Source of the DNA: Boudabousia liubingyangii
Lineage (GTDB): Bacteria > Actinomycetota > Actinomycetes > Actinomycetales > Actinomycetaceae
Length of the DNA stretch: 64,000 bases
Reading direction: 5' to 3'
Assembly (NCBI RefSeq): GCF_001907245.1
Contig: NZ_MQSU01000001.1
Coordinates: 208,224-272,223, forward strand
Shown: piece after piece, positions 8,301 through 17,450 of the stretch
Position numbering within the stretch: position 1 is the stretch's first letter
Layout: each line of letters opens with the position of its first letter
Program-made: the position numbers and the translations under genes
Notes under the pieces: model-generated
Seen by the model: only the letters and a program-made list of their open reading frames with translations
Databases searched by the model: none
What the model was told of the DNA's origin: nothing

Positions 8301-9563
8301 CTAGAAGGTCACCAGGAAGCCAGCGTCGTCAACGGCACTGCCACCTACCCGTGCCACTAGGTGCGCGGCAATCGCCTCCACCACCGTGGTGGCATTCATG
8401 CGCTCCACGCGCAGCGTCCGCGGGATTGAACGCAAGTACGCACGCTGCGGGTCCGACGGTTCCCAACGAACCTCATAGACCACGACCGGCCCCTGCGCCC
8501 AATCCTCCCAGCGCAAAGCCGCCGGCACTTCCACCTGGCTGAAAGTCTCAACCACGACCGCCGCACCATGCCCCACCGGGGCCGTCAGCAAGTACTCCTC
8601 ACGGGAAGACTCAGTCCGCACACCCAAAGCCAGGGGCACACTACTGGGGATCTCCCCCTCGCGAGTGCCCGTCAAACCAGCCCGGTTCGAACCCTCCCTG
8701 GGGGTACTCAAAGCGATCCGGTCAAAAGCGGCCGCCGCCGCATTCAACTGCTCCAACTCTTCCGTGCTGATCCCCGCCTCTTCCAAGTGACGCAGCGCCA
8801 CCCGGGAAGTCAAGGCCGCACCCAAAGAAGGCAAGTGTGTCATCGGGGCCTGCTTAGCCTCCTCGATGGCCTGCGCGCGGGAACCAAAAAGCTTCAACTG
8901 TGGCACCAAATCCCGCATGTCCTTAATCAGGTCCTCCGCGGGCAGCCAAGCGGGCGCATAAACGTACAGGTTCACGGCCGCATCCGGGTCCGGCTCATAA
9001 ACCAGGCCCATATCAGAACGAACCCCGCCCCCTAGGCGGCGAGCAATCTCCACCAACTGGGCGACCGTCTCATACTCTTCACCCGCGGGCATCACGAACC
9101 TAAACAGTGGGTCCAGCGGGTCCTCGGGCGCGTCCGGGCTGATCGCCTCACGTTCACGCGGCAACTGCACCGTAAAGGCCGAGGCCGCATTCGCCGGCAG
9201 TTTCAAAGCCTGCCGGACCTGGCGGGTAACCTCCCACGGGCCCGTCAAAGTTACGTCCCCATACAGGCCCAAAATGCCGGGAGACAACCAACCGGCCTCA
9301 TCCCACAGGCTCACGCACAGGGCCTCAACCTCATCCGGGGACACGTCCGCGGGGAAGAACAGCAGGTGACCGCCCGCCAACTGGGTGGGTAGGGCCTGAC
9401 CGGCAAACCAGTCCGTGGCCAGGGTGTAAGTATCGGTAGCGCGACCAGCGAAGGCGGTGCCGTCCTCGTGAAGATGGAACGTGGCACCCTCGAAAGCAGG
9501 TTCAAGTGCTGCTGCTAGAACCGGGTCCAGGATGCCGTCGCGGTTAAAACTCTTCGCCGCCAT
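8301..9563 (-). CDS. Conserved hypothetical protein downstream of dcd
   Basis: 420 residues, soluble and acidic, without signal peptide or membrane helix. The composition is balanced and looks like a folded intracellular protein of two or three alpha/beta modules; segments such as GLYGDVTLTGPWEV and VVVYEVRWEPSDPQRAYL suggest beta-rich units. It has only one cysteine and no recognised catalytic motif. It starts 3 bases after the stop of dcd on the same strand, so the two are cotranscribed and a terminator follows. A link to nucleotide metabolism is possible but rests on position only. Confidence 0.7.
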   Translation of the reverse strand: MAAKSFNRDGILDPVLAAALEPAFEGATFHLHEDGTAFAGRATDTYTLATDWFAGQALPTQLAGGHLLFFPADVSPDEVEALCVSLWDEAGWLSPGILGLYGDVTLTGPWEVTRQVRQALKLPANAASAFTVQLPREREAISPDAPEDPLDPLFRFVMPAGEEYETVAQLVEIARRLGGGVRSDMGLVYEPDPDAAVNLYVYAPAWLPAEDLIKDMRDLVPQLKLFGSRAQAIEEAKQAPMTHLPSLGAALTSRVALRHLEEAGISTEELEQLNAAAAAFDRIALSTPREGSNRAGLTGTREGEIPSSVPLALGVRTESSREEYLLTAPVGHGAAVVVETFSQVEVPAALRWEDWAQGPVVVYEVRWEPSDPQRAYLRSIPRTLRVERMNATTVVEAIAAHLVARVGGSAVDDAGFLVTF

Positions 9564-11891: not shown

Positions 11892-13421
11892 ATGATGCGC
11901 ATTGTAGCCGGTGGCTTTCACATTGAATCCTCTACCTTTACGCCCTACATTTCCGGGACCGCAGATTTCACGGTTCGACGCGGGGCGGACCTAGCGGCCC
12001 GCTACCCGTGGATTGCCGATCAGCGCTTCGGGGAAGACCTAGAATGGGTGCCCATTGTGCACGCCGGTGCGCTACCTGGCGGCGTGGTCGACCGCGACTT
12101 CTACGATGCTTGGGAGGCCGAGTTCCTGACCGGCATTAAACGCGAACTACAATCCCCCGGCGGGGTCCAGGGTGTTCTACTGGATATTCACGGGGCCGCC
12201 AGCGTAGAAGGCATGATGGACGCCGAAGGCCAACTAGCGGTCAAACTGCGCGACCTAGTAGGCCCGGACGTGCGGATCTCCACCTCCATGGACCTGCACG
12301 GCAATGTCTCCCCCGACCTGTTCGAGTCCTGCGACCTGCTGACCTGCTACCGCACCGCCCCGCATATTGACTCCCCGGAAACCCGGGAACGCGCCGCGGA
12401 ACTGCTAGTGCGGGCCCTGCGCACGGACCAGCCCATCTACCGGGCACGCGTAGCCGTGCCGATCCTGCTGCCCGGGGAAAAGACCTCTACCGTGGTGGAG
12501 CCCGGAAAGTCCCTCTACGGCATGATCAAGCCCCTGATCGCTGACTATGACCTGTGGGATGCGGCCATCTGGATGGGCTTCCCCTGGGCGGATCAGCCCC
12601 GCTGCCACGGGGTCGTGGTGGTCTCTGGCCAGGATCAGGCTGGCGTCCGCGCGGCCGCCGAAGAACTGGGGGCCGCTTTCTGGCGGGCCGGCACCGACTT
12701 TGATTTCGTAGGCCCCACCGCCCCCGTCGAGGACGCGATCACCGAAGCCCTGAACTCACCGCAGGCGCCGTTCTTCATTTCGGATACAGGCGATAACCCG
12801 GGGGCCGGCGGCTACGGTGATTCCCTGGCCTTATTGCGTCCCCTGTTTGCCGCCTGGGTGGCCGGGCCTAAGCGACCCTCGGTCCTATTTGCTTCCCTAT
12901 TCGCACCCGATTTGGCACCCAGCTTGGAGCTGGGGCAAGAAGACGTTTTTGAGCTCTTCCAGGAATCTGACCCCTCCCAGCCGGCGCTACCCTTCCCGGC
13001 TCTGGTGGAGAAGGTTTGGGATGATGAGCGCGCGGGTCGCTGCGCGGTCCTTAGTGCCGTGACCCCGGTGAATGCGCAGCTGTTGGAGAGTGCCCAGCTG
13101 GGTGAGGTTCCGCCCACCTTCCGGGTGATTGTTACCGAAAAGCGCATGCAGTATGCGACGGAGGCGGATTTTGCGCGGGCGGGCTTCGCCGAGTTTACCG
13201 ACCCGATGACCGATGAGCCTCTGGGTGTGGTGACCGTGAAGATTGGTTACCTAGAGCCCGATTTGGCGCAGGCTTCGAAGGGTTGGGTGATGGCCCTGAG
13301 CGAGGGCGCGGTCAACCAGGACCTGGTGTCTTTGGATTTCCGGGAGCTGTCCCACCCGCTGTTGCCCTTCGACCAGTTCGCGGGCGACCCGGATTTAAGT
13401 GCTCAGCTTCTGGAAAGCTGA
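11892..13421 (+). CDS. M81 family metallopeptidase (MlrC-like)
   Basis: 509 residues. The family includes microcystinase C (MlrC) of microcystin degraders; most members act on unknown peptides. Visible family motifs are GGFHIESSTFTP at the N-terminus, LDIHGAASVEG near residue 97, SMDLHGNVSPDL near 130, CYRTAPHIDSPETRERA near 150 (metal ligands Asp and His), and DTGDNPGAGGYGD near 299. There is no signal peptide, so it is intracellular. The gene is followed after 21 bases by the GIY-YIG/DUF4357-like gene, suggesting cotranscription. The substrate is unknown. Confidence 0.88.
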   Translation: MMRIVAGGFHIESSTFTPYISGTADFTVRRGADLAARYPWIADQRFGEDLEWVPIVHAGALPGGVVDRDFYDAWEAEFLTGIKRELQSPGGVQGVLLDIHGAASVEGMMDAEGQLAVKLRDLVGPDVRISTSMDLHGNVSPDLFESCDLLTCYRTAPHIDSPETRERAAELLVRALRTDQPIYRARVAVPILLPGEKTSTVVEPGKSLYGMIKPLIADYDLWDAAIWMGFPWADQPRCHGVVVVSGQDQAGVRAAAEELGAAFWRAGTDFDFVGPTAPVEDAITEALNSPQAPFFISDTGDNPGAGGYGDSLALLRPLFAAWVAGPKRPSVLFASLFAPDLAPSLELGQEDVFELFQESDPSQPALPFPALVEKVWDDERAGRCAVLSAVTPVNAQLLESAQLGEVPPTFRVIVTEKRMQYATEADFARAGFAEFTDPMTDEPLGVVTVKIGYLEPDLAQASKGWVMALSEGAVNQDLVSLDFRELSHPLLPFDQFAGDPDLSAQLLES

Positions 13422-13442: not shown

Positions 13443-15368
13443 ATGACTAGATTGTTGAATCTACAGTTGCTTGATGATGCTCTGGATGGCGCCCGTTTGG
13501 TGTCCATGCCGCAGCGAACCCACCGTTTAGTTTTCTTCCCGGCTGGGAGTGCAAAAAGGTGGCAGGGGGATCCTAGGTTTGAGACTGCTGGGGTCTTCGT
13601 GGCATTCAATCGTCTTAGCGAGAAGAGCCCTTCTAGGATTGCCCGGGTGGCGGCTGCCGGCACCCCGAAACCTGGTAGTGACACGGGGGCTTTAAGTACG
13701 GCCCTGAGTAATCTGAAAATCAATAGCGAAGACCTAGTGTTGATTTCTAACTCTTCTCATGGTTTTAGCTCTAATGAGTTATTTGCTTTGGCCACGCTAC
13801 TGGTCGATAAGCTTAAAGCTACCGGCAAGTACGATCAGGTACTGTTCCCCTATAGCGGGATCGACCATGATATCGAGTTCGAAAAACTTAGTATGAACGA
13901 GGTTGCGGAAGATGCCGCCTTGATGCTGGGTGCCATGGGTTTGAAGTTCCTACAGCCTTACCCGAAGGGTCCCCAACGTCAGCACTACCCGGACTCACTA
14001 CCAACTTCTTTTGGGGTTAATGCTCGTTTCCAGCCAGCGGCACCGCAGCCGCCCAAGCCGAAAGCCGAAAAAGCGCAAGAATACCAACCGAAACGGCCCG
14101 ACTCAGGACGGATCGACTTAGAACGGATCGATTCGCAACAGCCCCAAGCAAACCGTCAGCCGGTAGAACGGCCAGAAGTACCACGAACCGTACCTGCGTC
14201 CTCGGCACCAGAAATCCCGGCTCCTCCCAAGCCACAGTCGAACCCCATACCAGAGCGAGGTTTGGGTCAGTTACCGGCAACTACCGCGCCGAAGCCGGTG
14301 GAGCCGGTTCGTACCAAGCCAGATTCATTCATCCCCGAGACCGGTTACGTTCCCCCGCAGGCACCCAGAACCTTAGCGAGACCAGGAATTGGTTCCGCCC
14401 TGAAAAAGGCAAGTGCCGAGGCTGCCCGAAGCGCCAAATTCTTAGAAGAGGCAGACCGAGAACAGTCGCCCACCCCGACTTTCCTCCGTGACGAGCCTCG
14501 ACCCGCAACCCCACCAGCGGCCTCGACTACCTACTCTCAACCGAAGCTAGTAGAGGCGGACCCGAATATTAAGCTTCACTTCGAAATGTCAGAACTTGAT
14601 GTTTCCGCGAAGGTCGACCTGACTGAAGCAGGCTGGATCATTCGTGCCGGTAGCCAACTGTCATATAAAGAACCAACCACCCGAAATTCGAAAAGGCTAC
14701 GGGGAAAGTTCTCAGATAAGATCACCGATCACTTCTACGTCACTGAGGAGATTACTCTGCCGGGGCAGCTCACTCCCCATACCGTGGCTGCTTTCGTGGC
14801 CGGATCTACCAGTGAGGGTCTAAACGGTTTGGTTTCTCAAGTCGGAAAAACCTTACGTGCGTACTTCGTTGACGGTTATTTCTATCAGAATCAAACCCAG
14901 CCGGCTCCCAAGACCGTACAGCACCGCAATGAGGTGTATACCCGGATTGGACAGCAGCTTGAAGGATCACCGTATTCCAACCTGCTACTGCTGGAACTAC
15001 CCAGTGCTTCCCGCTATGCCGCTCCCCTTACTTTCACCATGAAACTGGGCGATGGTATTACCGCGTCACTGCGCTATTACGAGGACTGCTGGGTACTAGA
15101 GCGTGGTTCGGTCCTGTCCCCCGATATTAGTACTTCCGCTCCCGGGTTTGTTAAAGATCTACGCACCCGCTTAGGGCTTGCCGACGTCAACTCCCGGATC
15201 TTGACCACGGACCTGATCTTCAGCCCCCGCATTCACGATATTGCGATCGCTGGTTTCGTGGCCGGACGTAGTCGCACCAACCAGGATGACTGGCACGATG
15301 CGCGGAATGTTTCTTACCAAACCCACATTGCTGCGGGCCGCATTAAGCCCTATAAAGAGAAGGATTAG
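13443..15368 (+). CDS. Protein with degenerate GIY-YIG-like N-terminus and two DUF4357-like domains
   Basis: 641 residues. Residues about 25-135 resemble the N-terminal nuclease domain of GIY-YIG/DUF4357 proteins, but the signature tyrosines are lost (GVFVAF in place of GIYxLx; IARVAAAG in place of YIG). Residues 195-365 are a Pro/Gln/Lys-rich disordered linker. Two C-terminal modules, about 375-470 and 530-620, share a pattern like DUF4357: W(I/V)(I/L)xxGS followed about 50 residues later by A(A/G)FVAG. GAGGAAAG precedes the ATG. The assignment is by pattern and uncertain; loss of the tyrosines suggests binding rather than cutting of nucleic acid. It lies between the M81 gene and two membrane proteins. 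Confidence 0.6.
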   Translation: MTRLLNLQLLDDALDGARLVSMPQRTHRLVFFPAGSAKRWQGDPRFETAGVFVAFNRLSEKSPSRIARVAAAGTPKPGSDTGALSTALSNLKINSEDLVLISNSSHGFSSNELFALATLLVDKLKATGKYDQVLFPYSGIDHDIEFEKLSMNEVAEDAALMLGAMGLKFLQPYPKGPQRQHYPDSLPTSFGVNARFQPAAPQPPKPKAEKAQEYQPKRPDSGRIDLERIDSQQPQANRQPVERPEVPRTVPASSAPEIPAPPKPQSNPIPERGLGQLPATTAPKPVEPVRTKPDSFIPETGYVPPQAPRTLARPGIGSALKKASAEAARSAKFLEEADREQSPTPTFLRDEPRPATPPAASTTYSQPKLVEADPNIKLHFEMSELDVSAKVDLTEAGWIIRAGSQLSYKEPTTRNSKRLRGKFSDKITDHFYVTEEITLPGQLTPHTVAAFVAGSTSEGLNGLVSQVGKTLRAYFVDGYFYQNQTQPAPKTVQHRNEVYTRIGQQLEGSPYSNLLLLELPSASRYAAPLTFTMKLGDGITASLRYYEDCWVLERGSVLSPDISTSAPGFVKDLRTRLGLADVNSRILTTDLIFSPRIHDIAIAGFVAGRSRTNQDDWHDARNVSYQTHIAAGRIKPYKEKD

Positions 15369-15384
15369 CCACCATTTATTGTGG

Positions 15385-15431: not shown

Positions 15432-16583
15432 ATGAACGAAAAATGGGAATCACGAGTGCTACACCTAGCACTCAAAAGCGACCTAGTCACGGACGGGCAA
15501 GTCTCCACGCTGAAACAAAAAATCCACGACCTAGCCAATAGCGTCCCCGACCCGGAAGATACCTATGGCGCCCCCGAAAAGGTCGCGTACGAGGTAGTGC
15601 GCGAACTAAACCGCGGTAGTCGCGTTTTCCCCGGGAAGGACTATGCGTCCTCGTACAGTAAGTACCGGCTTACCGCCCTACTGGGCCTGATTTTTGCGCT
15701 CCTCCTGACCTACCGCGCCTACACGGCCGGGCCGCGCGAAACCGGGAACCTACCCATGTACGTGTTCATCATGGCCGTAACTTTTGGGGTTTTCTGGGCT
15801 AGCGAGGGCGCCACACTGGGTTCTCGCAAAACCATCTGGAAGGGCCTGGGCGTGACCGTCCTGGGGTTGGTCCTGATTGTCCTGCCCTTTACGGTTAGTC
15901 TCTTCCAGAAAGTACCCGATAATGTCTGGATTTGGGGCGGCATTAGCATTGTCATGTTCGCGGTTATCGCACTGATTATGAACCTGAAGCCGCAGCCGGC
16001 AGACCCGCCCGCTAATGAGGACTGGTACGGGGATCTGAACACGCTGCTGTTACTGCGCTACTACCTGCGTCGGGGCGAGCGAATCCGCCTAATTGCCGAA
16101 GCGAAGGCGGCAGGTGGGGAGCAACCTCGGGAAACCTTGGGATACCCCTTGGGTTACGTCAAGGACCTGCAGCTTAAACACCGGGAACTGCTGGATCGCA
16201 AAGAGCGGCTAGACAGTGCCATCACCAATGCGATCCTGCTGCCCTTCCTAATCTTGGCCCTGGGGATCCTAGGTTCGGAACTGTATACCGACGGCAACCT
16301 GAGCACCTGGCATTGGGTCCTATTTGTGATTGTCGCTCTGGGTTGCTTGGCTTACCTAGTGGCTGGGCTGATGTGGATCAAAGACCGCTACGGGGTCAAG
16401 CGCGTCCAGGACTCAAAGGAGGCCGTAAAGCTCAAGACCCTGCCGGACCCAGCTGCCGAAAGTGAGGAGCGTTCCGGCGGCAGTGAACTGGCCACGGGGT
16501 ATTCGGTTCATGCCGCGGAAGACGCTGAACCCGAGGAAACGCTTCCCCACTCACCCACCCACACCACCCCAAAAGATAGTTAG
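15432..16583 (+). CDS. Membrane protein, paralogue of the next gene
   Basis: 383 residues. The soluble N-terminus of about 65 residues is helical and charged. Four membrane helices follow, then a cytoplasmic segment of roughly 90 residues, two more helices and a polar tail. The frame is open upstream to 15381, but GGAGG at 15420-15424 points to the ATG at 15432. The cytoplasmic segment (WYGDLNTLLLLRYYLRRGE, later LGYPLGYVKDLQLK) matches a segment of the following protein, so the two arose by duplication. No family was recognised; the arrangement of soluble helical N-terminus and paired helices recalls small sensor or transporter regulators, but this is only an impression. Confidence 0.75.
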   Translation: MNEKWESRVLHLALKSDLVTDGQVSTLKQKIHDLANSVPDPEDTYGAPEKVAYEVVRELNRGSRVFPGKDYASSYSKYRLTALLGLIFALLLTYRAYTAGPRETGNLPMYVFIMAVTFGVFWASEGATLGSRKTIWKGLGVTVLGLVLIVLPFTVSLFQKVPDNVWIWGGISIVMFAVIALIMNLKPQPADPPANEDWYGDLNTLLLLRYYLRRGERIRLIAEAKAAGGEQPRETLGYPLGYVKDLQLKHRELLDRKERLDSAITNAILLPFLILALGILGSELYTDGNLSTWHWVLFVIVALGCLAYLVAGLMWIKDRYGVKRVQDSKEAVKLKTLPDPAAESEERSGGSELATGYSVHAAEDAEPEETLPHSPTHTTPKDS

Positions 16584-16616: not shown

Positions 16617-17450
16617 ATGTCTGAACTCAACGGTTACGGGCAAGACCAAGAGGAAACTCCCCCACATCCGGCGATTGTGGCCGCGCGGGAAGCAGAAAAG
16701 TACGGTTACGGGCCAGCCCGCTGGGCCAGCGCCCTAGTAGTGCTGGCGGCCATGCTGATCCTGATCACGGTCAAAGCATTCTTCAATACGGGCCTGACCG
16801 GCTCCACCCCGCTTAGCGCCAAGGGCACCACAATCTTCCTGCTGATAGTCATTGGCATAACCCTAAGCAGTGGTTACGGTTCCCTAGGTAAGTTCCTGCA
16901 GGCAGTTGCCAGCCTAAGCGTCGGAATCGTCTTGGTCGTACTGGCGGCCTTCTACGTTCCCGAATACCAGTTCCAAATGCCCAACTGGTTACTGGCCGCC
17001 GACGCTGCCGTCCTGGCGGTTTTGGGCTGGAAAACCAGCACCCTGGAGCCCCTTCCGCATCGCCGAGTTCGCGCCGAAGTCTGGTACCGTCGCCTATACA
17101 GTCACCTGCGCTGGACCTACTACCTGCCACGGACCACCGCAAAAGAATGGCTAACCAAAACCTATCAGGACGGAAAAGAAGACCCCCAAAAGGAGCTGGG
17201 CTCCCCCACGCTCTACGCCGCCCAAATGATTAGCGAAAAGCCCAGCTGGTGGGAGCGTCGCCAACGCATCAACTACTGGGTCTCCCGCCCCTTCCTACTG
17301 CTGCTCACTTTGCTTTTCATGTACCTACCCTTTGGGATTCGGCATCAGGGCGAGGAAGTCCACCTAGGGATCTGGTTACTAGCCGGGCTCAGTCTGCTGA
17401 TCTTCCTGGGCGTCCTTTACGGGATGGTCAAGCGCTTCCGGGAGCGCTAA
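16617..17450 (+). CDS. Membrane protein, paralogue of the preceding gene
   Basis: 277 residues with four N-terminal and two C-terminal membrane helices. Between them lies a cytoplasmic segment (VWYRRLYSHLRWTYYLPR, later LGSPTLYAAQM) that aligns with the same place in the upstream protein: a Trp-Tyr, a YYL-R, a kinase-like Lys/Glu helix, and LG-P-YA. It lacks the long N- and C-terminal polar tails of its partner. The ATG follows GGAAGTGCACGCTA, a usable ribosome binding site. It is 33 bases downstream of its paralogue and probably forms a complex with it. The end lies 1 base from the convergent modBC gene. Confidence 0.75.
   Translation: MSELNGYGQDQEETPPHPAIVAAREAEKYGYGPARWASALVVLAAMLILITVKAFFNTGLTGSTPLSAKGTTIFLLIVIGITLSSGYGSLGKFLQAVASLSVGIVLVVLAAFYVPEYQFQMPNWLLAADAAVLAVLGWKTSTLEPLPHRRVRAEVWYRRLYSHLRWTYYLPRTTAKEWLTKTYQDGKEDPQKELGSPTLYAAQMISEKPSWWERRQRINYWVSRPFLLLLTLLFMYLPFGIRHQGEEVHLGIWLLAGLSLLIFLGVLYGMVKRFRER

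Follow-up and report, generated by a model that had tools for sequence, protein, structure and literature searches.

A putatively nuclease-derived protein with a degenerate GIY-YIG domain and two DUF4357/RAMA-like modules beside HAAS-type membrane proteins in Boudabousia liubingyangii

Proteins of the GIY-YIG/DUF4357 type form a widespread family, which is listed in PADLOC as the phage-defence candidate PDC-S14 and also appears as phrog_12629. Given that the Pfam GIY-YIG cut-off is reached in two DUF4357 loci (G014:C1:1315600 and G015:C58:31187), the family can be regarded as a true GIY-YIG family, and in its 108-row alignment the catalytic Y, Y, R and E are intact in all non-gap rows and the N in 108 of 108. 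A comparable architecture is known from RAMA fusions; RAMA is listed among the readers of modified bases (PMC12839542), and GIY-YIG-RAMA fusions have been discussed as possible modification sensors, with a preference of the RAMA domain of MPND for adenine methylation not being confirmable (PMC11037411). DUF4357-like modules are present in relatives of GmrSD as well (PMC4619093). HAAS domains, for which a GxP motif has been described, are found in HAAS-PadR dyads, and the proteins that carry them are described as signalling components, not as toxic effectors (PMC11237479).

The locus examined here lies in a 64,000-nucleotide stretch of the B. liubingyangii chromosome (the window, positions in which are used throughout). 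It encodes a protein, P0001, that resembles the nucleases above in part and is followed by two membrane proteins, P0002 and P0003, as laid out below.

11892..13421, + strand: M81 metallopeptidase gene (PF07364, E 3.5e-88), immediately upstream of P0001
13443..15368, + strand: P0001 gene, for a 641-aa protein, apparently nuclease-derived, with a degenerate GIY-YIG domain, a Pro-rich linker and two DUF4357/RAMA-like modules
13452..13958, + strand: N-terminal domain of P0001 (residues 4-172), collinear with the GIY-YIG domain of the family, catalytic Y, Y, R, E and N replaced
13965..14546, + strand: linker (residues 175-368), rich in Pro, Ala and Gln and predicted to be disordered
14574..14858, + strand: DUF4357/RAMA-like module 1 (residues 378-472), profile E 1.2e-11
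15036..15314, + strand: DUF4357/RAMA-like module 2 (residues 532-624), profile E 3.2e-10
15432..16583, + strand: P0002, membrane protein of 383 aa, in the order HAAS, TM, HAAS, TM, with GxP at 15567 and 16140
16617..17450, + strand: P0003, membrane protein of 277 aa, in the order TM, HAAS, TM, with GxP at 17199

The 641-codon frame of P0001 is unbroken, and GAGG, resembling a ribosome-binding site, stands 5' of its ATG. Its third-position GC (0.554) is the lowest among the window genes measured, and its codon adaptation is low. The surroundings are otherwise those of an ordinary chromosome: genes for an MFS transporter and the M81 peptidase lie upstream, and genes for molybdate transport and nitrate reductase follow downstream. 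None of the ORFs in the window was recognised as a defence gene. Elsewhere in the window, GC falls to 0.469 at positions 1-2000, where the GC skew is strong (-0.295), in contrast to the remainder.

A profile of 108 homologues, collected from a GIY-YIG/DUF4357 protein of a same-genus genome, aligns with the N-terminal domain of P0001 from end to end in one continuous, nearly gap-free stretch. The domain scores 9.5-9.9 bits against the family profile (E about 3e-5 for one sequence), whereas the best of 2000 shuffled controls reaches 8.2-8.4 bits, and P0001 is the top-scoring non-family protein among 1180 predicted proteins under either profile. In agreement with this, hhalign gives a probability of 94-96% (P 9e-8, local) for the same comparison. 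This match is weak by itself, but it gains weight from being collinear with the strong C-terminal homology set out below. All five catalytic positions are altered: GVF stands in place of GIY, so that the tyrosine has become a phenylalanine, YIG is missing, and the catalytic Glu is replaced by Ala. Because every catalytic residue has been replaced, P0001 is classed as nuclease-derived and not as a GIY-YIG nuclease.

The homology of the C-terminal half is strong. Taken jointly, the two modules match the C-domain profile of the family at E 1.2e-20, and both keep the core motifs of the parent family (WIIRAGS and AAFVAGS in module 1, WVLERGS and AGFVAGR in module 2). Aligned with each other, they score 73, whereas shuffled sequences average 33 (sd 6.3) and 0 of 1000 attain that value. 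They also have in common a 3-residue insertion, present in 0 of 108 relatives, which suggests that the modules probably arose by internal duplication. The insertion is better evidence for this than the module tree, which gave no placement for either module, both branches being very long. Stock Pfam and NCBIfam models yielded nothing usable for the N-terminal domain or the modules of P0001; at E 10, neither Pfam DUF4357 (PF14267), tried on each module alone, nor Pfam RAMA (PF18755) matched them, and the latter does match 13 of 20 aligned homologous modules (best 3.6e-6). Between the two halves, the linker of about 190 residues contains 20% Pro, and disorder is predicted at residues 186-287 and 336-360.

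These results agree with most of the original prediction, made from the sequence alone, which had described an N-terminus of the GIY-YIG/DUF4357 type without its signature tyrosines, a disordered linker (put at 170 residues) and two C-terminal DUF4357-like modules. Its proposal that P0001 originated from a GIY-YIG/DUF4357 nuclease is likewise backed, as far as sequence goes, by the collinear N-terminal domain and the profile matches of the C-terminal modules, and the sequence equally supports the loss of the catalytic residues and the doubling of the module.

AlphaFold2, given an alignment of homologues, returned a model of the N-terminal domain with a pLDDT of 83 and a pTM of 0.81, in which two strands, a helix, a strand and a helix are predicted at the expected positions. 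Module 1 was modelled with a pLDDT of 90-98 and module 2, effectively without homologues, with one of about 70-84; the helices and strands of the latter are predicted in the same order as in the former. When the two P0001 models, which alone served as queries, were compared with the PDB by Foldseek and VIA-align, the rows returned were weak and unrelated, with no GIY-YIG entry among them, while Foldseek including viral models gave one phage GIY-YIG homing endonuclease at E 0.49. This comparison, the structural check named with the original prediction, speaks neither for nor against the predicted folds. Among PDB sequences, neither an intact homologue nor the module profile found a match.

P0001 resembles the PDC-S14/phrog_12629 nucleases in its collinear N-terminal domain and C-terminal DUF4357-type module, and it matches PADLOC PDC-S14 (E 4e-15) and, less strongly, PDC-S57 (1.7e-4). 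It differs from these nucleases, which keep their catalytic residues and have one module, in that the residues are replaced and two modules are carried behind the long linker. Like the RAMA fusions, it combines a nuclease-type domain with a RAMA-like module behind it, but it lacks the catalytic residues, and neither of its modules reaches the threshold of Pfam RAMA. Two DUF4357-type matches in a single ORF are also found in L009 of genome G055 (also L210, G055:C1:2513086-2513595, from the same order); unlike P0001, this protein has 295 aa, an unrelated N-terminus and no nuclease domain or GIY-YIG remnant.

The P0001 gene is confined to this genome among 213 genomes of the family. A homologue locus is present in Actinomycetaceae bacterium TAE3-ERU4, which belongs to the same GTDB genus as the host. 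No other ORF pairs two modules with a GIY-YIG-type protein among 395 class genomes searched with the module profile, and no close relatives were found in GTDB contigs, plasmids, phages or viral contigs. Matches of 600-650 aa in other actinobacteria were considered as full-length relatives and rejected, being McrB-type NTPases with one module; those recorded (L193, L197, L200, L201, L202, L207 and L211; 608-656 aa) come from several other families of the class and carry the DUF4357/RAMA-like module at the N-terminus. In 20 additional loci of the parent family, the catalytic residues are kept wherever covered. In one other member, L091 (G185:C20, 3920-5887, minus strand; start of the long frame uncertain), the catalytic Glu is replaced by Gln and the Asn is lost. 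Since L091 is also degenerate and apparently independent of P0001, activity has probably been lost more than once among GIY-YIG/DUF4357 proteins.

The original prediction also proposed the M81 peptidase and two paralogous membrane proteins as partners of P0001. The peptidase was dropped as a member of such a system, because the M81 genes of same-genus genomes are found in other places, where the P0001 gene is absent, and its adjacency here is probably incidental. In the same-genus genome G003, the dCTP deaminase/MFS pair, the M81 gene and the mod genes have their relatives in three separate places, so the adjacency seen here is not conserved. In G003 (L182, 8979-12598), M81 is adjoined by a C5 DNA methyltransferase-like gene and by a 700-aa gene of no known identity on the opposite strand. 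The dCTP deaminase, for its part, is adjoined in 3 of 3 same-genus genomes inspected by a 420-aa protein without a significant Pfam match, encoded in the window at 8301-9563 on the minus strand.

As for the membrane proteins, P0002 and P0003 are indeed paralogues, albeit distant ones (pairwise E 1e-6), and their description can be revised to that of HAAS-type membrane-signalling proteins on the grounds of the GxP motifs and PadR-linked relatives. Their GxP motifs, of the kind expected in the third helix of HAAS, number two in P0002 and one in P0003 and align with those of relatives linked to PadR, although Pfam HAAS (PF22564/DUF1700 superfamily) matches neither protein at E 5-10 and matches a relative, L054, at E 0.13 only. 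A PadR-type gene directly precedes the relatives of P0002 in three genomes from a different genus of the family, as well as in a same-genus genome, where the gene is PadR by Pfam (9e-20). With the HAAS-PadR dyads, P0002 and P0003 share TM segments joined to HAAS-like segments that contain GxP; unlike the dyads, they lack an adjoining PadR, and the DUF4357 protein P0001 sits where PadR stands in the relatives. The only PadR of the genome is located on another contig (L258, G000:C4:363495-363707); a serine-recombinase-like gene and an ABC transporter are close by, and no HAAS protein was recognised next to this PadR. The likeliest start of P0002 is the ATG at 15432, after GGAGG; in the ORF listing, the start is the GTG at 15381. 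P0001, P0002 and P0003 lie on one strand, with 63 bp separating P0001 from the likely ATG of P0002 and 33 bp separating P0002 from P0003, and no terminator-like signal was found between them on the + strand. Given these gaps, the three genes may, but need not, be co-transcribed.

In the reading that has about an even chance of being right, P0001 is a nuclease-dead descendant of the PDC-S14 type with two modules, which would bind DNA without cutting it and whose state would be coupled to the HAAS membrane proteins. The GIY-YIG domain would be retained as a non-catalytic fold, and the doubled modules on a long flexible linker would probably allow P0001 to bind two nucleic-acid sites, or one more tightly; it is the combination of lost catalysis and a duplicated module that points to binding without cutting. 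That P0001 reads nucleic acids is inferred from the RAMA matches in the family and from the occurrence of the modules in McrB-type NTPases and GmrSD relatives. A nucleic-acid-binding or sensing role is a reasonable putative function, but a reader role of RAMA/DUF4357 is itself putative and unproven, which counts against this explanation, as do the occurrence of the gene in one genome, the failure of Pfam DUF4357 and RAMA to match the modules of P0001 and the lack of a clear PDB match for either model. The state of such a DNA-binding or DNA-reading protein may be coupled to P0002 and P0003; a physical coupling of this kind is suggested by the gene position and by the missing PadR nearby. A bolder extension, in which a dead restriction-type nuclease with doubled modification readers has replaced PadR on the DNA side of a HAAS membrane sensor, giving a defence/envelope-stress hybrid, seems unlikely.

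Other accounts of the locus have to be weighed. P0001 may be a nucleic-acid-binding protein functionally unrelated to its neighbours, with the HAAS genes adjacent to it by chance. Its gene is an orphan, the trio is known from one genome, and the codon usage of P0002 is nearer to that of the host than that of P0001, as would be expected had the two arrived separately; the shared strand with the 63 bp and 33 bp gaps, the lack of a + strand terminator-like signal between the genes and the position of P0001 where relatives have PadR all argue against chance, and such an arrangement is doubtful, ranking after the bolder extension in probability. Slightly further down the scale stands the view that P0001 is what remains of a PDC-S14-type nuclease in decay and has no function today. 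The loss of every catalytic residue, the low third-position GC and codon adaptation and the restriction to a single genome fit decay, but the frame of 641 codons is unbroken and preceded by a ribosome-binding-like site, the core motifs are kept in both modules, and a linker and a second module have been gained where decay would remove parts.

The lowest probability, at which it is rather improbable, is given to a stand-alone anti-phage system, in which the dead nuclease would act as the sensor of phage nucleic acid, with P0002 and P0003 as effectors. It has its sole basis in the candidate status of the parent family in phage defence, seen in the PADLOC matches of P0001, together with DUF4357-like modules in restriction proteins of the McrB and GmrSD types. 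PDC denotes candidate status only, no relatives were found on the phages, plasmids and viral contigs searched, and HAAS proteins are signalling parts by description; as no other feature of the window, where no defence gene was recognised among the ORFs, suggests defence, this account is rated lower.

If P0001 is indeed a non-cutting, DNA-binding partner of HAAS proteins, a nuclease of the phage-defence type would have been converted into a regulator or sensor, and HAAS signalling would reach beyond PadR partners. The protein would also offer a natural test of the widespread, uncharacterised DUF4357 module, present in two copies with no expected nuclease activity to mask its binding.
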